Positions 39,626 to 46,797 of a stretch of DNA of 64,000 nt are shown piece by piece. Positions within the stretch are counted from its first letter, which is position 1. Each line of letters starts with the position of its first letter. The DNA is from Micromonospora sp. MP36. Lineage in GTDB: Bacteria; Actinomycetota; Actinomycetes; Mycobacteriales; Micromonosporaceae. The position numbers and the translations under genes are program-made. Location of the stretch: assembly GCF_008119785.1 (NCBI RefSeq), contig NZ_VSFA01000002.1:186001-250000 (forward strand), given 5' to 3'. The notes beneath the pieces were generated by a model that saw only the letters and a program-made list of their open reading frames with translations, searched no databases and was not told the DNA's origin.

Positions 39626-40456
39626 ATGACCTTGACCGCCGCCCCGCCGGCCCGCCCACCCCGCCCCACGGCCGTCACGACCGCGTCCTGGATGCAGCTC
39701 GCCGCGGCGGCCCTGCTGCTGGTGGCGGCCGGTCTGTTGGTGTGGCACGCGATCTGGTGGGACGGCGAGATCGACCACGCGGCCCGGCTGGTGCCTGATG
39801 CCGACCCGGCCGAGGTGGACGGTGAGCGCTTCGGCAACGTCATGATGTCCTGCGTGCTGGGGGTGCCGGTGCTGCTGTTCGCGGCCCTCCTCGGCGTCGC
39901 CGCCCGGGGTGTCCGGCGGGGCAGCAACGGCGCCCGGATCGCCGTCTTCGTGGCCGGCGGCCTGCAACTGCTGGTCGGCGTCGGCCAAGGCTGCTGCGCG
40001 GGTGCGGCGCTGCCGTTCTTCTTCGCGTTCGGCGCCCCGATGGAGGCGGGAGACGTGCCCCCCGAGTTCCTTCCCGAGGAGTCGACGTTCAGCCAGACTC
40101 TCTACGGCACCGATCCACAGGGGGACCTCTTCTTCGCCGGCGGCGGACTGATCGCGCTGCTGGTCCTCGGTCTCACCGTCACGGCCGTCGTGCTGTTGGC
40201 GCTGCCCACGTCCCACCGTTGGTTCGTGCCGCAGGCCGCCGAACCACCCCGCCTGCCAGCCGGCTATCCGGCGCCGTCCGCCTTCCTGCTGCCGCCCGGC
40301 TACATGATCTGCCCCGATCCCCGGGCCCACGGCGTGCCGGGGCAGTACGGTCCGGCCGCCCCGGGTCCGGCCGCGCCCGCCGCGCCCATCGATCCCGCCG
40401 CGGCGCCCGACGGGCCGCCCACCGATCCCACCCAGGGGGTGAGCGACGCCGGGTAG
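39626..40456 (+). CDS. Four-helix membrane protein with Pro-rich tail (paralog A)
   Basis: A 276-residue protein with four membrane helices (starting AAAALLLVAAGLLVWHAIWW; GVPVLLFAALLGVA; GARIAVFVAGGLQLLVGVGQGCCAGA; LIALLVLGLTVTAVVLLAL) and a cytosolic Pro/Ala-rich tail. The block NGARIxxFVxGxxxxxxxGxxCC and the layout recur in the genes at 45031 and 45877, so these are three members of one family. Function unknown; possibly envelope homeostasis. Confidence 0.75.
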   Translation: MTLTAAPPARPPRPTAVTTASWMQLAAAALLLVAAGLLVWHAIWWDGEIDHAARLVPDADPAEVDGERFGNVMMSCVLGVPVLLFAALLGVAARGVRRGSNGARIAVFVAGGLQLLVGVGQGCCAGAALPFFFAFGAPMEAGDVPPEFLPEESTFSQTLYGTDPQGDLFFAGGGLIALLVLGLTVTAVVLLALPTSHRWFVPQAAEPPRLPAGYPAPSAFLLPPGYMICPDPRAHGVPGQYGPAAPGPAAPAAPIDPAAAPDGPPTDPTQGVSDAG

Positions 40457-40540: not shown

Positions 40541-41170
40541 GTGAACGGAACGCTGGCGTATCTACTGGTGACCCTGGGGTGTCTGGTCGGGGTGGCCGGT
40601 GTGGTGATCGCCGTGGTGGCGCTGCGCAAGGCCCGCACCGGGCCCCGCCCGCAGACCCCCGGCGACCCGTTCCGCGACCGGGACGCCGACGCGCTCCGCG
40701 GCGACCCCCGCCAACTCAAGCCCGGCGACATCGTGGAGATCCGCCAGGTCCCGTACACCGTCCGCGGCTCGGTGCATCTCGTCGAGGGCGGCTGGAGCTG
40801 GGCGGAGCACCTGCTCGATGACGCGGGCGGGGTGAAGCGCTGGCTCTCCGTCGAGTCGGACCCGGACCTGGAACTGGTGCTCTGGACCAGCGAACCGTCC
40901 GCCACGGTCACCCCCGGTGCGCCCACCTTGGACGTCGCCGGCCGTCGCTACACCTGGGACGAGTCCGGCCAGGCGCGCTACACCGCCACCGAGGGCACCG
41001 GCCTCGACCCCCGCGGCACCATGCGCTACCACGACTACCAGGCGCCCGGCGGGGCCCGGCTCTCCTTCGAGGCGTACGGGGAGGCCGGCTGGGAGGTGAA
41101 CCTCGGCGAGAAGCTGCACCGCGCCGAGGTGATGATCTACCCGCAGGGCGGTCCGGAGCAGGTGGCCTGA
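40541..41170 (+). CDS. DUF4178 protein with N-terminal membrane helix
   Basis: A 209-residue protein from GTG 40541, preferred over 40493 because GGGGAGG lies 5 bases upstream. One membrane helix (LAYLLVTLGCLVGVAGVVIAVVAL) is followed by a cytosolic beta-rich DUF4178 domain (LKPGDIVEIRQVPYTVRGSVHLVEGGWSWAEHLLDD...KRWLSVESDPDLELVLW). First gene of a tightly packed six-gene operon. DUF4178 proteins are known from comparative genomics to neighbour PspA-like, DUF350 and spermidine-synthase genes; molecular role unknown. Confidence 0.85.
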   Translation: MNGTLAYLLVTLGCLVGVAGVVIAVVALRKARTGPRPQTPGDPFRDRDADALRGDPRQLKPGDIVEIRQVPYTVRGSVHLVEGGWSWAEHLLDDAGGVKRWLSVESDPDLELVLWTSEPSATVTPGAPTLDVAGRRYTWDESGQARYTATEGTGLDPRGTMRYHDYQAPGGARLSFEAYGEAGWEVNLGEKLHRAEVMIYPQGGPEQVA

Positions 41171-41172
41171 GC

Positions 41173-41664
41173 GTGCTGGTCGCCCTGGACGCCCCGTACG
41201 TCGACACCCGCGCCGCCGACCTGAGCCTGACCCTCGGCGGCCCGGAACGTCCCGCCCTGCACGTCCGCGAGCTGGCCCTGCCCGGCGGCATCCGACTGCG
41301 GCTGCGCCTGCTCGGTGCCTCGCACCAGGTGGTCTGCGGTGAGCTGGTCGAGACCGTCGCCTGCCTGCCCGGCCGCCCGCCGCACCTGCCGGAGACCCTG
41401 TACGACGAGGACGCCGGCTACCGGTTCACCGCCACGGTGCTGCGCCCGGAGGGCGACGGCCTGCGTACCCGCGTCGCCGCGCTCCGCGCCGACCTGGCCG
41501 ACGACCCGTACGCGCTGGTCGGGGTCTTCCCCGGTGACGTGGACGCGGTCACCGCGCTCTCCGTCCGCCCCGATCCGCCGGACGGCTCGATGGCCTGGCG
41601 CACCTGGCACGCGTACCCGCAGACCAACGAGCTGGTCCTGACCGAGACGGTGGTGGAGCTGTGA
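41173..41664 (+). CDS. DUF2617 protein
   Basis: A 163-residue soluble protein from GTG 41173, 2 bases after the previous stop. Beta-rich sequence with the family blocks LVALDAPYVDTRAADLSLTLGG, LGASHQVVCGELVETVACL and YRFTATVLRPEGDGLRTRV. Uncharacterised family; here always within the spermidine-synthase operon. It overlaps the next gene by GTGA. Confidence 0.82.
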   Translation: MLVALDAPYVDTRAADLSLTLGGPERPALHVRELALPGGIRLRLRLLGASHQVVCGELVETVACLPGRPPHLPETLYDEDAGYRFTATVLRPEGDGLRTRVAALRADLADDPYALVGVFPGDVDAVTALSVRPDPPDGSMAWRTWHAYPQTNELVLTETVVEL

Positions 41665-42086
41665 CGTACCGACGGTGGTTCGTGGTGGGGGTGGCGGTCG
41701 CCGTGGTCGGCGCGCTGATCGCCGCCTTCGCCGTCTTCTACGGCAACTTCTCCCCGCGCGGCTACGTCGAGGACCACTACGCCCGGGCGGCCAGCCGGGA
41801 CATCGGCTCCGGCGCGCTCGCGTACACCTCGACCCGGCCGCCCAGCCAGGTGGCGAAGGAGGTCACCGACGCCTGGCAGCCGGCCGACGAGTACGTCGAC
41901 GGCAGCGGCGTCTACCTGCGCTACGACGACGACTCGGTGGTGATCCTGCCGGTCGCCGCCGGCTCGCTGATCCTGCTGGAACGGATGACCACCGCCTACC
42001 CCCGCTACCACCACGTCGTCGGCCGCGGCTGGGGCTGGGGCCGTGGCAGCACCGTCCGGGGCGGTGGCCCCGGCGCCGGCAAGTAG
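41661..42086 (+). CDS. DUF4247 protein
   Basis: A 141-residue protein: one N-terminal membrane helix (FVVGVAVAVVGALIAAFAVFY) and an extracytoplasmic domain (SPRGYVEDHYARAASRDIGSGALAYTS...GVYLRYDDDSVVILPV) ending in a Gly/Arg/Trp-rich tail. This corresponds to DUF4247. The overlap with the DUF2617 gene implies coupled translation. Function unknown. Confidence 0.82.
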   Translation: MTYRRWFVVGVAVAVVGALIAAFAVFYGNFSPRGYVEDHYARAASRDIGSGALAYTSTRPPSQVAKEVTDAWQPADEYVDGSGVYLRYDDDSVVILPVAAGSLILLERMTTAYPRYHHVVGRGWGWGRGSTVRGGGPGAGK

Positions 42087-42116
42087 CCCGTCCGACCCCT
42101 CACCCTGGAGTCCCCT

Positions 42117-42539
42117 GTGCAGCATCTCGTCACCGATCTGCTGGTCACTCTCGCCTACGGCGTGGTCGGCGTCGTCCTGATGGGCATCGGCTACCTGCTG
42201 GTCGACCTGGCCACCCCGGGCCGGCTCGACCAGCTCATCTGGACCGAGCGCAACCGCAACGCGGCGCTGCTGCTCGCCTCCAACCTGGCCGGCGTCGGCA
42301 TCATCGTGGTCGCCGCGATCGCCGCCAGCCCGGACGACTTCCTGCTCGGCCTGGTCGGCGCGGCGGCGTACGGCATCCTCGGTCTGGTCATCATGGCGGC
42401 GGCGTTCGTGCTGCTGGATGTGGCCACCCCCGGCAAGCTGGGCGAACTGCTGGTCGACCCGGAGCCGCACCCGGCGGTCTGGGTCAGCGCCGTCGTGCAC
42501 CTCGCCACCGGCGCGATCATCGCCGCCGCGATCAGCTGA
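42117..42539 (+). CDS. DUF350 (YjfL-like) membrane protein
   Basis: A 140-residue protein of four membrane helices in two repeated halves: LAYGVVGVVLMGIGYLLVDLATPGRLDQLIW matches AAYGILGLVIMAAAFVLLDVATPGKLGELLV, an internal duplication typical of DUF350. Probably a small channel or scaffold. It ends in TGATG shared with the next gene. Confidence 0.88.
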   Translation: MQHLVTDLLVTLAYGVVGVVLMGIGYLLVDLATPGRLDQLIWTERNRNAALLLASNLAGVGIIVVAAIAASPDDFLLGLVGAAAYGILGLVIMAAAFVLLDVATPGKLGELLVDPEPHPAVWVSAVVHLATGAIIAAAIS

Positions 42540-43375
42540 TGGGCGGCGGGACGCGACCGGCTGCGGCCAGGTCAACAGGCCGGAAGTCGACGTCGCTGGA
42601 GGCGGCCCTGGTCCGCGTGATCGTCCCGGGGGTCGCCGGCCTCTGCCTCGCCGGCTGTGCGAGCGGATCCGACCTCGACGTCCCCGCGCCGGCGACCGAC
42701 GAGCGCACCGACACCGTGCCGATCCTGCGGGAGGCCTTCACCAGCCAGGGGATCTGCTACGGCTGGCGACTGACCGACGGGTACGACGTGGTGAGCGTCG
42801 GCTCGAACCTCGGCGACGGGACGGCGGTCGGGGACGCGCCGGACTGCCCGCGCTGGATCGAGGTCAGCGCGGACATCACCTACACCTCGGAGAGCAGCGA
42901 GGCGAACGACTCCGCCTACATCCAGGTGGAGGGTTCGGACGACATCGACTTCGCCGACCTGTCCGGCATCGCGCGGGGGCTGGACCGGTTCGGGCTCGAC
43001 GAGGACACCTTCATCGACGACCCCGGCTGGGCGATCACCCGGGCCGCCACCACGCTGCCGCTGCTCGCCGCCGAGGCGGGTCTGGCCGCACCGGCCGCCA
43101 CCCCGACCGCCGGCTCGGCGGCTTCGGCGAGCCCACTGCCGGACGCCGGCAACGACTTCTGGCGGGACCGCTGGGGCTGGCTGCTCGCCACCGTGGCGCT
43201 CCTCCTGCTCGCCGCGCTCTTCGTCACCGTGGGGGTGGCGCAGCGCCGGACGACTGCTCCGGGTCGCGGCGCGGCGGCAGACGCGCCGAGCCGGAGTGGT
43301 CGCAAGCCCCGGGGACGCGTGCCCGGGCAGCGCGCCGGGGCGGGAGCCGCCGGGCGTACCCGGGAGGAGGCGTGA
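42539..43375 (+). CDS. Lipoprotein-like protein with C-terminal membrane helix
   Basis: A 278-residue product from ATG 42539, overlapping the DUF350 stop. A hydrophobic segment ends in LCLAGC, a plausible lipobox at Cys40. An acidic domain follows with GICYGWRLTDGYDVVSVGSNLG and CPRWIEVSADITYTSE, then a second membrane helix (GWLLATVALLLLAALFVTVGV) and a basic tail. The double anchoring would span the outer face of the membrane. No family recognised; context ties it to the operon. Confidence 0.75.
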   Translation: MGGGTRPAAARSTGRKSTSLEAALVRVIVPGVAGLCLAGCASGSDLDVPAPATDERTDTVPILREAFTSQGICYGWRLTDGYDVVSVGSNLGDGTAVGDAPDCPRWIEVSADITYTSESSEANDSAYIQVEGSDDIDFADLSGIARGLDRFGLDEDTFIDDPGWAITRAATTLPLLAAEAGLAAPAATPTAGSAASASPLPDAGNDFWRDRWGWLLATVALLLLAALFVTVGVAQRRTTAPGRGAAADAPSRSGRKPRGRVPGQRAGAGAAGRTREEA

Positions 43376-44940
43376 CCACCGACGCGCCGGCGCCGCCGCG
43401 ATGGCGCGCGGCCCGCGCGGCGGTCCTGCTCGCGGTCTTCGTCTGCGCGGCCTGCGGTCTCGTGTACGAGCTGGCGCTGGTCGCCCTCGGCAGCTACCTG
43501 ATCGGTGACGCCGTCGGCCAGGCGTCGATCGTGCTCGGCGTGATGGTCTTCGCGATGGGCGTCGGCGCGCTCGCCGCGAAGCCCTGGCAGTCCCGGGCGG
43601 CGGCCGCGTTCGCCGCGGTCGAGCTGACCCTCGCGCTGCTCGGCGGCCTCTCCGTGCTCGGCCTGTACGCCGCGTTCGCCTGGCTCGACCTCTACGGGCC
43701 GGCGCTGGTCGGCACCGCCTTCGTGCTCGGCCTGCTGATCGGCGCGGAGATCCCGCTGCTGATGGTGCTGCTGCAACGCATCCGCGAGCAGTCCGCCGGC
43801 AGTGCGGTGGCCGACCTGTTCGCCGCCGACTACGTCGGCGCGCTGCTCGGCGGGCTGGCCTTCCCGTTCCTGCTCATGCCGGTCTTCGGCCAGCTCAAGG
43901 GCACCCTGGTGGTCGGCGCGGTGAACGCGGTCGCCGGCCTCGCGCTGGTGTGCACGGTCTTCCGGGCCGACCTCGGCCGCCGGGCGCGGCTCGCGCTGGG
44001 CGCCGGCTCCGTCGTGGTCGCCCTCCTGCTCGGGTACGCCTGGGTCACCGCGCACGACTTCGAGGTGACCGCCCGCCAGCAGCTCTACCGCGACCCGGTG
44101 GTGCACGCCGAACGCAGCCGCTACCAGGAGATCGTGCTGACCCGGTCGGTGCGGGAGATCGGCCACGCCGACACCGACCTGCGGCTCTTCCTCAACGGCG
44201 ACCTCCAGTTCAGCTCGGTCGACGAGTACCGCTACCACGAATCGCTGGTGCATCCGGCGCTGCGCGGCCCGCGCGGCGAGGTGCTGGTGCTCGGCGCCGG
44301 GGACGGGCTGGCGCTGCGGGAGATCCTGAAGTACCCGGACGTGCGCCGGGTGACCGTCGTCGACCTCGACCCGGCCGTGGTGCGGCTGGCGGAGACCGAG
44401 CCGCAGCTGCGCGAGCTCAACCACCACGCGTTCGCCGACCCCCGGGTGCGGGTGCTCAACCTGGACGCGTTCGGCTGGCTGCGTACCGCCACGGAACGCT
44501 TCGACGTGGTGGTGGCCGACCTGCCCGACCCGGACGAGACGGCCACCGCCAAGCTCTACACGGTCGAGTTCTACGCCCTGATCCGCTCGGTGCTCGCCCC
44601 CGACGGGCGGCTGGTGGTGCAGGCCGGGTCGCCGTACTTCGCGCCGAGGTCGTACTGGTCGATCGAGCGGTCGGTCCGCGAGGCCGGCTTCGGCACGGTG
44701 CCGTACCACGTGGACGTGCCGAGTTTCGGCGACTGGGGTTTCGTGCTGGCCGCGCCGGGCACCGCCCCGCCGGCGCCGGAGCTGCCCGCCGACGCTCCGC
44801 CGCTGCGCTTCCTCACCCCGTCGGTGCTGGCCGCGGCGACCACCTTCCCCGCCGACCGGGCCCGGGTGGACGTGCCCGCGTCCACTTTGCTGCAACCCCA
44901 CGTGCTGGAGTACGCCCGCGCGGAGTGGCGCGGCTACTGA
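43372..44940 (+). CDS. Membrane-fused spermidine-synthase-like aminopropyltransferase
   Basis: A 522-residue protein from GTG 43372, with GGGAGGAGG directly upstream and a GTGA overlap. Six to eight membrane helices (residues 15-215) precede a spermidine-synthase domain. That domain has YQEIVLTRS, LRLFLNGDLQFSSVDEYRYHESLVHPAL, VLVLGAGDGLALREILKY, VTVVDLDPAVVRLA and DVVVADLPDPD. The catalytic base region DLPDP and the GAGDG nucleotide motif are intact. It would transfer an aminopropyl group from decarboxylated S-adenosylmethionine to an unknown, perhaps membrane-linked, acceptor. Last gene of the operon. Confidence 0.9.
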   Translation: MTTDAPAPPRWRAARAAVLLAVFVCAACGLVYELALVALGSYLIGDAVGQASIVLGVMVFAMGVGALAAKPWQSRAAAAFAAVELTLALLGGLSVLGLYAAFAWLDLYGPALVGTAFVLGLLIGAEIPLLMVLLQRIREQSAGSAVADLFAADYVGALLGGLAFPFLLMPVFGQLKGTLVVGAVNAVAGLALVCTVFRADLGRRARLALGAGSVVVALLLGYAWVTAHDFEVTARQQLYRDPVVHAERSRYQEIVLTRSVREIGHADTDLRLFLNGDLQFSSVDEYRYHESLVHPALRGPRGEVLVLGAGDGLALREILKYPDVRRVTVVDLDPAVVRLAETEPQLRELNHHAFADPRVRVLNLDAFGWLRTATERFDVVVADLPDPDETATAKLYTVEFYALIRSVLAPDGRLVVQAGSPYFAPRSYWSIERSVREAGFGTVPYHVDVPSFGDWGFVLAAPGTAPPAPELPADAPPLRFLTPSVLAAATTFPADRARVDVPASTLLQPHVLEYARAEWRGY

Positions 44941-45030: not shown

Positions 45031-45804
45031 ATGGTCGATGCCCAGGGGCCCCCGGCCCGTACCCGCCGCCCGGGTGTGGTGACGCTCTCCAGTTGGCTGC
45101 TCATTCTCGTTGCCGCCATCCAGGTGGTGAACCTGATCCTGACGCTCACCACCATCGGCACCGTCCGGAACGTCCTGCGGGACGCCTACCGGGGCACCGC
45201 CGCCGAGCAGGCGGCCGATTTCGCGTACGCGGCCGCCCTCGGGGGCGCCGTGCTCTCGCTGCTGTTCGCGATCGGGCTCGTGGTCCTCGCGCTGCTGAAC
45301 AACCGGGGCAAGAACGGCGCCCGGATCACCACCTGGGTGGTGGGCGGCATCCTGTTCTGCTGCAACGGCGGCGGCCTGGTGAGCAACGCGACCGGCGGCC
45401 TGACCGGCGGCGGCGCGCCCGGCGGCAACATGCCGAGCCCGGAGGAACTCCAGCGCCGGCTCTCCGACGCCCTGCCATCCTGGTACGGCCCGGTCACCCT
45501 CCTCCTCGGCCTGCTCAGCCTGCTCGCCCTGCTGGCCGCCCTGATCCTGCTGGCGTTGCCGAAGTCCAACGAGTTCTTCCGCAAGCCGAAGCCGGCCTGG
45601 GAGTCGCCCGTGCCGGGTGGCGCCTACCCGGCCTACCCGCCCGCCCCGGGCTACCCGGGTCAGCCGCCGGCGCCCGGCTACCCGTCGGCCCCGGACTACC
45701 CGCCCGCTCCAGGCCAGCCCGGTCAGCCCGGTCAGCCCGGGCCGTCGGGTCCGTCGTCGGCCCCCGAGGACCGGCCCGGCCCCCAGCCCCCATCCGGAAG
45801 TTGA
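45031..45804 (+). CDS. Four-helix membrane protein with Pro/Gly/Tyr-rich tail (paralog B)
   Basis: A 257-residue protein from ATG 45031 with a strong AAGGAG. Four membrane helices (SSWLLILVAAIQVVNLILTL; GAVLSLLFAIGLVVLALL; GARITTWVVGGILFCCNGGGL; LLLGLLSLLALLAALILLAL) and a tail of about 60 residues with repeated PGYP/PGQPGQ units. Same architecture and GARIxxxVxGxxxxC block as the genes at 39626 and 45877. Confidence 0.78.
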   Translation: MVDAQGPPARTRRPGVVTLSSWLLILVAAIQVVNLILTLTTIGTVRNVLRDAYRGTAAEQAADFAYAAALGGAVLSLLFAIGLVVLALLNNRGKNGARITTWVVGGILFCCNGGGLVSNATGGLTGGGAPGGNMPSPEELQRRLSDALPSWYGPVTLLLGLLSLLALLAALILLALPKSNEFFRKPKPAWESPVPGGAYPAYPPAPGYPGQPPAPGYPSAPDYPPAPGQPGQPGQPGPSGPSSAPEDRPGPQPPSGS

Positions 45805-45876: not shown

Positions 45877-46797
45877 GTGTCGTACCCCGTTCAGGCTCCG
45901 CCTCGCCGTCCGGGGGCGGTGGTCGCGGCGGCGGCGGTGCTGCTGCTGCTGATGGCGGTCGGCGCCGTGGCGTACGCGATCGCCAACCTGGCGGTCACGC
46001 CCGGCACGGTGGACCGGTTCCGGGTGGCGGCGCGGGCCACCGGCGCCGGCGCGAGCGAGGTCGACCCGTTGGTGTCGCTGCTGCGTGCCTCCACCGCGCT
46101 GGCGGCCGTGGTCGGCGTGGTCGTCGGGCTGGTGCTCGTCGGGCTCGCTCTCGGGCTGCTCGCCGGTCGCCCCGGTGCCCGGGTGGGCACCTGGGTGGTC
46201 TCCGGCCTGGGCCTGCTCTGCGGCTGCTGTGCCCTGGCGGTGCTGGTCGGCCAGCGGGCCGCCCCGCTGCGCCTCGGTGCCGACGAGCGGGTCACCGCCG
46301 ACCTGCTCGCCCGCCTCGGCGACACCTACCCGGGCTGGTGGATCCCGCTGAACGCGGCGCTGTCGGTAGCCCAGATCCTCGGCTACCTGGTGGTCGCCGC
46401 CCTGCTGATGCTGCCCGGCGCGAGCGCCTTCTTCCGCCGCGCCGTGCCCACCGCGCCGGCCTCCGGCCCGCTGCCTCCGGCCGGACCGGTCCCGCCGGGC
46501 GGGCCGACCACCCCGCCGACTGGGCCGACCACCCCGCCGGCTGGGCCGGCCTACGGTCCGCCGAACTCCGGCCCGGCGGCCTCGCCGTACTCCGGTCCGC
46601 CCGCGTCGTCGTCGCCCTCCTACGGTCCGCCGGCTTCGGCGCCGCCGCCCGCCGGTTCGCCCGCCGACGGATCAGGTTCGCCCTGGGGCCCGCCCGTGCC
46701 GCCGCACATCGGGTCTGGCCCGGCGGGCCCGCCGCCCACCCCGCCGGCCGCGTCGGCGGAACCCGGACCGACGCCACCCCCCGAGGACCGCCCGTGA
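45877..46797 (+). CDS. Four-helix membrane protein with Pro-rich tail (paralog C)
   Basis: A 306-residue protein from GTG 45877. Four membrane helices (VVAAAAVLLLLMAVGAVAYAI; LAAVVGVVVGLVLVGLALGLLA; ARVGTWVVSGLGLLCGCCALAVLVG; VAQILGYLVVAALLML), then about 125 residues of PxGPTTPP/YGPPxS repeats. GARVGTWVVSGLGLLCGCC corresponds to the conserved block of paralogs A and B. GTGA overlap couples it to the dehydrogenase gene downstream. Confidence 0.78.
   Translation: MSYPVQAPPRRPGAVVAAAAVLLLLMAVGAVAYAIANLAVTPGTVDRFRVAARATGAGASEVDPLVSLLRASTALAAVVGVVVGLVLVGLALGLLAGRPGARVGTWVVSGLGLLCGCCALAVLVGQRAAPLRLGADERVTADLLARLGDTYPGWWIPLNAALSVAQILGYLVVAALLMLPGASAFFRRAVPTAPASGPLPPAGPVPPGGPTTPPTGPTTPPAGPAYGPPNSGPAASPYSGPPASSSPSYGPPASAPPPAGSPADGSGSPWGPPVPPHIGSGPAGPPPTPPAASAEPGPTPPPEDRP

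Follow-up and report, generated by a model that had tools for sequence, protein, structure and literature searches.

Bacterial operons that combine a fusion of a seven-transmembrane domain and a spermidine synthase with DUF350, DUF4178 and a lipoprotein have been described by Ravi et al. 2024 (PMC11237479). The excerpted text of that study also describes a variant whose CesT/Tir-PspA dyad has given way to DUF4247 and DUF2617, and it notes two conserved His, one Asp and one Glu in DUF2617. Here, we analysed a stretch of 64,000 nucleotides (nt) from Micromonospora sp. MP36 (contig NZ_VSFA01000002.1, positions 186,001 to 250,000; hereafter the window), in which six genes of the plus strand are packed within 40541-44940. 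Compared by Pfam families with the same excerpts, this operon is the DUF4247/DUF2617 variant of Ravi et al. and shares with it DUF350, DUF4178, the lipoprotein, the fusion enzyme, DUF4247 and DUF2617; PspA within the operon, which defines a phage shock protein system, is not found among the six genes. An initial annotation had regarded the system as undescribed, a view given up here since the excerpts name all four DUFs and describe the PspA-free variant, which also rules out the operon itself as a new one. The difference lies in the reading of its parts: in the excerpts, DUF2617 is not named an S-adenosylmethionine (AdoMet) decarboxylase and a Lys-ended tail is not mentioned. A second study (PMC12803844, 2025, likewise as excerpted) states that bacterial homologs of a fungal membrane-aminopropyltransferase fusion had been shown to play no part in spermidine/spermine synthesis. 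These proteins resemble the enzyme analysed here in joining a membrane domain to an aminopropyltransferase-like domain, but the actinobacterial copies in our set pair with DUF2617 instead of SpeD, and the excerpts name no acceptor.

Three aspects of the operon look new, namely DUF2617 as putative maker of the aminopropyl donor, a Lys-ended tail of DUF4247 as candidate acceptor and a transferase domain predicted outside the membrane. The open-licence literature covered, in part as excerpts, holds no mention of a complement between DUF2617 and SpeD or of the Lys-ended tail. Aminopropyltransferases take their aminopropyl group from decarboxylated AdoMet, the product of SpeD, and SpeD (PF02675) was not detected in the window's genome. 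Many Actinomycetia have this ‘polyamine aminopropyltransferase’ without a recognised donor source, a gap that DUF2617 would fill if our reading is true.

Genomes were searched for the enzyme (NF002956), SpeD (PF02675) and DUF2617 (PF10936) in three sets: 36 genomes with and 20 without the enzyme, 68 with and 12 without it, and 39 further genomes of one genus (g166), 4 with and 35 without it. The 67 enzyme-free genomes were chosen from named lists plus the 35 of one genus and are not a random draw. DUF2617 was present in 104 of 108 enzyme-bearing genomes versus 1 of 67 enzyme-free ones, and SpeD in 1 of these 67 (G390, in which SpeD and Spermine_synth lie side by side at locus L221 and the membrane-fused enzyme is absent). 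Among the enzyme-bearing genomes, 95 had DUF2617 only, nine had DUF2617 together with a SpeD homolog, four (G049, G254, G544 and G232) had SpeD only, and none had neither. Fisher's exact test gave 4e-42 for enzyme versus DUF2617 and 1.3e-4 for absence of DUF2617 versus SpeD, both values being descriptive only because the genomes are related. DUF2617 and the enzyme are co-inherited far beyond chance; the enzyme occurred in 79 of the 80 named DUF2617 loci, the contig of the remaining locus ending early. Eight further enzyme-bearing genomes outside these tables, in which DUF2617 was not scored, gave no SpeD match (0/8). In a tree of the enzyme, the four copies from genomes without DUF2617 take up two distinct, supported positions, both with a DUF2617-bearing copy as sister, and so count as two losses on this tree. 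Within genus g166 (41 genomes), the sole SpeD sits in the sole enzyme-bearing genome without DUF2617. No second Spermine_synth domain was found at 1e-5 in G049, G544 and G232, so SpeD is left without another obvious partner there.

Ser63, His68 and Cys83 are essential in SpeD (PMC10407285, as excerpted), and all three are retained in the four genomes that have SpeD only, with Gln preceding the Ser in G232. Of the nine SpeD homologs found alongside DUF2617, seven are altered at Cys83, His68 or the whole motif and two are intact: Cys83 is replaced by Tyr in G023, G258, G401 and G450, His68 by Ser in G339 and G428, and the motif is absent in G517. The four Tyr-bearing homologs (L212, L108, L215 and L217, respectively) also read ASH for ESH, and they are possibly an inactive or repurposed family.

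The complement extends beyond these genomes. Among 14 control genomes, Spermine_synth (PF01564) was found in ten, eight of which have SpeD and the other two, Corynebacterium glutamicum and Haloferax volcanii, DUF2617, with no overlap. On plasmids of proteobacteria and Gemmatirosa, SpeD flanks a relative of the enzyme in eight of ten fetched loci (weakly in L193); in three Burkholderia loci it lies about 3 kb from the enzyme relative on the opposite strand, and DUF2617 had no match in any plasmid record searched. Some genomes fit a simple exchange less well and count against it. The SpeD of G254 forms one protein with a SpeE domain of its own, intact SpeD co-occurs with DUF2617 in G518 and G524 (one genus) and in G615, and G461 carries DUF2617 without the enzyme (1/67). 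SpeD matches also occurred in 3 of 24 named DUF2617 genomes, one of them at the position known from G524 and so probably that genome. The G254 fusion is a 408-aa open reading frame (ORF; L208 5831-7054) of SpeD plus Spermine_synth; the DUF2617 of G461 (L220 3841-4386) is the only such case among the 67, the fused transferase being undetected there.

An alternative is that the transferase has switched its donor to AdoMet itself, for methyl or aminocarboxypropyl transfer, with DUF2617 having some other role, such as acceptor modification or presentation; a decarboxylase would thus be unnecessary. That SpeD went undetected in 95 of 108 enzyme-bearing genomes speaks for such a switch, as does the lack of a whole-fold match of DUF2617 to an AdoMet decarboxylase among the best 50 rows. 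We nevertheless consider it quite improbable, given that enzyme relatives on proteobacterial and Gemmatirosa plasmids lie near SpeD in eight of ten loci, that all four enzyme-bearing genomes without DUF2617 have SpeD, and that Haloferax, with DUF2617 and no SpeD, carries the complement into another domain of life.

But could DUF2617 make the donor itself? DUF2617 is probably a divergent, fused-double AdoMet decarboxylase of the SpeD (pyruvoyl) type. Asp11, Ser50, His51, Glu60, Thr127, His146, Tyr148 and Pro149 do not vary among 73 DUF2617 sequences, 72 of which also have Cys64; the closest named relatives of the window's copy are from Micromonospora, the best being 85% identical. The only sequence without Cys64, from G273 (L096 5753-6247), has Tyr instead, and its gene adjoins a transferase gene (L096 6520-8064) broken by an in-frame stop. 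Compared with SpeD by hhalign, the whole DUF2617 profile scored 21.5 and its C-terminal half 22.16, scores reached by 0 of 150 column shuffles in either case (best 19.4 and 16.7, respectively), while 19 other profiles from the loci, among them a DUF4247 profile from a drifted model, scored 15.05 at most. The C-half alignment with the class 1b SpeD of Thermotoga maritima places Phe119 on Phe49, Thr127 on Ser55, His146 on His68 and Pro149 on Pro71, and Ser50 and Cys64 of the N-half resemble Ser63 and Cys83.

The N-half, which holds the proposed Ser and Cys, speaks against this assignment: it does not align significantly with SpeD (131 of 150 shuffles scored as high), and its best local match, which pairs GASH with SESH of SpeD, is not significant either. 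Nor is the similarity of the N-half to the C-half of DUF2617 itself. DUF2617 further differs from SpeD in having Ala, not Glu, before Ser50, in an N-half helix that the structure model shows to be very short, and in Gln at the position aligned to SpeD Glu72 in 57 of 73 sequences. PF02675 does not match the window's DUF2617 even at E values up to 10, PF10936 being the only family that does, and the DUF2617 profile had no match among Protein Data Bank (PDB) sequences. An uneven relation of the two halves has a precedent in the eukaryotic enzymes of class 2, in which the Cys is located in the N-half. Their C-halves align with the prokaryotic enzymes directly, while the N-halves were superimposed via secondary structure and a few residues; the pyruvoyl Ser belongs to strand 4 and the His to strand 12 (PMC1282579, as excerpted). 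DUF2617 resembles them in that its C-half aligns to SpeD and its N-half does not.

Structure prediction gave models with a predicted local distance difference test score (pLDDT) of 94 for the whole protein and 93 for the C-half, which forms a beta-alpha-beta4 unit. The C-half model matched residues 5-78 of human spermine synthase (Z 6.8, root-mean-square deviation 2.8, 67 aligned residues, rank 13), and the N-domain of spermine synthase is very similar structurally to class 1b AdoMet decarboxylase (PMC12803844, as excerpted). This evidence from fold is weak because the scores of Ups1 and of Bet v 1-like folds are equal or higher and no AdoMet decarboxylase is among the best 50 rows of the fold search (Foldseek, VIA) for either the whole model or the C-half: Ups1 heads the C-half list (Z 8.6), 382 of 1000 chains reach Z >= 5, many Bet v 1-like folds tie with the spermine synthase match, and the best match of the whole model has Z 5.2. 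DUF2617 could instead be a metal enzyme or a binding protein built around Asp11, His51, Glu60 and His146, its complement with SpeD being coincidental. The two His, the Asp and the Glu listed in the excerpts of PMC11237479 are invariant in the 73 sequences, as such a protein would have them, but a metal site needs neither the invariant Ser50 and Thr127 nor the near-invariant Cys64, and the C-half profile match to SpeD would be left aside. We regard this explanation as unlikely and keep to DUF2617 as a putative AdoMet decarboxylase.

The enzyme clears NF002956 (‘polyamine aminopropyltransferase’, PRK03612) over residues 5-520 with 689.5 bits against a cut-off of 472, and its relatives in the PDB by sequence are mostly aminopropyltransferases. 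Residues D311, D333 and D383 align with D88, D110 and D158 of Escherichia coli SpeE, which we take to be donor-site and catalytic residues, and their conservation across 114 actinobacterial rows is 97-99%. The polytopic membrane domain and the intact cofactor motifs that the initial annotation had assigned to the enzyme are borne out by hydropathy and by these aspartates. It differs from SpeE in its fused membrane domain and in a cysteine-depleted catalytic part that is predicted to lie outside. Across the 114 rows, counts of Lys and Arg alternate along the seven hydrophobic segments in a manner that leaves the catalytic domain outside, and the catalytic part has 0.14 cysteines per 100 residues versus 1.33 for the transmembrane part, compared with 1.10 in ten relatives from the phylum whose match is confined to the catalytic part. 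The charge pattern and the cysteine depletion make a position of the transferase domain on the outer membrane face likely on balance. Two considerations pull the other way: we know of no extracytoplasmic enzyme with an AdoMet-derived donor, and the donor is a cation whose export would have to go against the membrane potential.

A product released as an ordinary free polyamine, of the spermidine type or aminopropylagmatine, made at the membrane and stabilising the envelope, would come near the published reading that links polyamines to membrane dynamics. The retained SpeE aspartates and the very name of NF002956 fit such a product. Li et al. 2019, probably the source of the published statement on the bacterial fusions, reportedly found membrane-SpdSyn fusions not to be involved in spermidine/spermine synthesis. 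That statement (PMC12803844, as excerpted), the predicted extracytoplasmic and cysteine-depleted catalytic domain and the Lys-tail partner described below all speak against a free polyamine, which we consider an improbable outcome.

What, then, could accept the aminopropyl group? The DUF4247 protein has a single N-terminal hydrophobic segment (residues 3-31 by hydropathy), and the copy at locus L070 has an apparent lipobox. A Gly-rich tail with terminal Lys was present in all 74 loci with a DUF4247 core match, in 51 distinct versions of 14 residues; at most 13 of these loci had also seeded the core profile and were chosen for their Lys end, and the last 18 residues lie outside the profile. Among 8150 ORFs of the 80 loci, 52 end in Lys with at least four Gly among the preceding nine residues, and all 52 contain GGG, GGP or GGS. 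The other families of the operon had a terminal Lys in 0 of 123 (DUF2617), 0 of 130 (enzyme), 0 of 86 (DUF350), 2 of 62 (DUF4178) and 1 of 25 cases (lipoprotein). By the clean core profile, DUF4247 is present in 47 of the 80 loci, and four more have an unmatched Lys-tail protein in the gap; a first count of 80/80 was discarded because the profile behind it had come to match out-of-frame ORFs overlying DUF2617. At L155, L158, L161 and L164 (Nocardiopsis, Streptomonospora) and at L084, a small membrane-anchored protein has this same tail. By the strict rule, Lys-tails occurred in 76 of 89 loci with DUF350 versus 1 of 45 without it, and the 13 DUF350 loci missed by the rule all carry a Lys-ended tail on inspection; L076 has such a tail without a detected DUF350. 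The loci are not all independent because the locus sets share genomes (e.g. L103/L151 and L154/L225). In proteobacterial-type loci, anchored Lys-ended substitutes were found in six of nine: that of Alteromonas is a 510-aa lipoprotein-like protein ending FRNRGPSSGK, and short substitutes with one transmembrane segment, whose starts were inferred, end GPSHK, GPTHK, GGGPESGK, NSNRVK and FRHGK.

The side chain of Lys is an aminobutyl amine like putrescine, and its aminopropylation would therefore give a spermidine-like end group. We tentatively suggest the C-terminal Lys of DUF4247 as the aminopropyl acceptor. Several observations tell against it: no Lys-tail gene was found between DUF2617 and the enzyme in 29 of the 80 loci (Streptomyces, Kitasatospora and others), three Burkholderia loci lack a Lys-ended gene having a transmembrane segment, and the short proteobacterial tail proteins were selected among Lys-ended ORFs by visual inspection, two of the six coming from one genus. 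A C-terminal Lys is also not unusual in itself (a single E. coli stretch has it in 8 of 28 genes), and a DUF4178 gene of the Novosphingobium plasmid locus L109 ends in Lys too. The same plasmid locus corresponds to the band-7 variant of Ravi et al. (excerpted text). Unmodified, the tail could be a docking or recognition tag read by some partner, such as DUF350 or the transferase, or it could bind anionic lipids. It follows DUF350 and not the transferase alone, and no tail gene is seen in loci reduced to DUF2617 and the enzyme, as a tag of this kind would predict; yet DUF4247, the 510-aa lipoprotein and the short peptides share mainly an anchor, a Gly-rich stretch and the terminal Lys, as expected of a substrate tag. 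We judge an unmodified tail to be a less probable explanation, though one to be taken into account. Modification of the tail Lys, if true, has a parallel in E. coli, where the DUF1190 proteins YgiB and YjfM (YgiBC/YjfMC) end in Gly-Gly beside genes annotated peptide--spermidine ligase (NC_000913.3), and where the neighbour of YjfMC, YjfL, is a DUF350 protein. There, the enzyme is an ATP-grasp-type ligase (PMC11237479, as excerpted), compared with an aminopropyltransferase and a terminal Lys here.

Taken together, the operon would form a complete unit for attaching an aminopropyl group to an exported protein anchored in the membrane. DUF2617 would decarboxylate AdoMet, and the seven-transmembrane transferase would keep its spermidine-synthase domain on the outer membrane face. 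With the domain outside, the donor must cross the membrane, speculatively through the transmembrane domain or DUF350. The C-terminal Lys of DUF4247 would finally be aminopropylated to a protein-linked spermidine-like group, with DUF350 and DUF4178 working with the tail protein. In outline, with DUF2617 as donor maker, an acceptor on an exported partner and the site left open, this is the best of the readings considered, though we rate it as slightly less likely than not. All parts jointly, that is DUF2617 as a second AdoMet decarboxylase family feeding outer-face aminopropylation of the anchored tail Lys throughout Actinomycetia, with SpeD replacing DUF2617 on proteobacterial replicons, form a doubtful proposition. 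From the complement of DUF2617 with SpeD and the tail ending in Lys, a specific mechanism is proposed. A true Lys-tail acceptor would turn a vague link between polyamines and the envelope into a defined protein modification and give DUF350, DUF4178 and DUF4247 a common purpose. The initial annotation had envisaged genes acting together on a membrane-associated acceptor, which fits the co-inheritance and the Lys-ended tail as a candidate acceptor.

The features of the operon are collected in the table. ORF coordinates and Pfam matches confirm the tightly packed six-gene operon with its named families as first annotated, with gaps of 2 and 30 nt and overlaps of 4, 1 and 4 nt. Pfam also agrees that PspA and ATP-grasp are absent from all six genes (0/6), to which the search for PspA was confined. 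No Pfam family matched the lipoprotein, which has two hydrophobic segments by hydropathy (the second at residues 211-237) and a C-terminal residue other than Lys. A neighbourhood survey of co-occurrence, as the initial annotation had proposed, shows a strong tie between DUF2617 and the enzyme and a looser one for DUF4247 (47/80) and the lipoprotein; DUF4178 is present in 38 of the 80 related loci. The six-gene arrangement is a local form because the lipoprotein is restricted to 24 of the 80 loci.

Table. Features of the operon on the window (strand +), with the basis of each assignment.
Feature	Position	Strand	Remarks
DUF4178 protein	40541-41170	+	PF13785, 125.6 bits; N-terminal hydrophobic segment (hydropathy); accessory
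DUF2617	41173-41664	+	PF10936, 166.5 bits; 2-nt gap after DUF4178
DUF2617 Ser50-His51 (GASH)	41320-41325	+	proposed equivalent of SpeD Ser63-His64 (pyruvoyl Ser); 73/73; motif match only
DUF2617 Cys64	41362-41364	+	proposed equivalent of SpeD Cys83; 72/73; motif match only
DUF2617 Thr127	41551-41553	+	on SpeD Ser55 (T. maritima numbering) by hhalign; 73/73
DUF2617 His146-x-Tyr-Pro149	41608-41619	+	on SpeD His68-x-Trp/Tyr-Pro71 by hhalign; 73/73
DUF4247, membrane-anchored, exported	41661-42086	+	PF14042, 71.1 bits; overlaps DUF2617 by 4 nt
DUF4247 C-terminal tail RGGGPGAGK	42057-42083	+	last Lys is the proposed aminopropyl acceptor
DUF350 (YjfL-like) membrane protein	42117-42539	+	PF03994, 93.5 bits; 30-nt gap after DUF4247
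Lipoprotein-like protein	42539-43375	+	1-nt overlap with DUF350; LAGC lipobox judged by eye
Membrane-fused aminopropyltransferase	43372-44940	+	NF002956, 689.5 bits; PF01564, 111.2 bits; 4-nt overlap with lipoprotein
Seven hydrophobic segments, residues 18-223	43423-44040	+	positive-inside pattern predicts N-terminus in, C-terminus out
Spermidine-synthase domain, residues 238-466	44083-44769	+	predicted extracytoplasmic; cysteine-depleted

The operon is flanked by three ORFs (39626-40456, 45031-45804 and 45877-46797) that match no Pfam family and resemble one another, each having hydrophobic segments and, after them, a tail rich in Pro. In family f4, the genomes G315, G385, G415 and G532 (L081/L082; L097/L098) are among those with two systems, a DUF2617-transferase pair and a fuller operon with DUF350.

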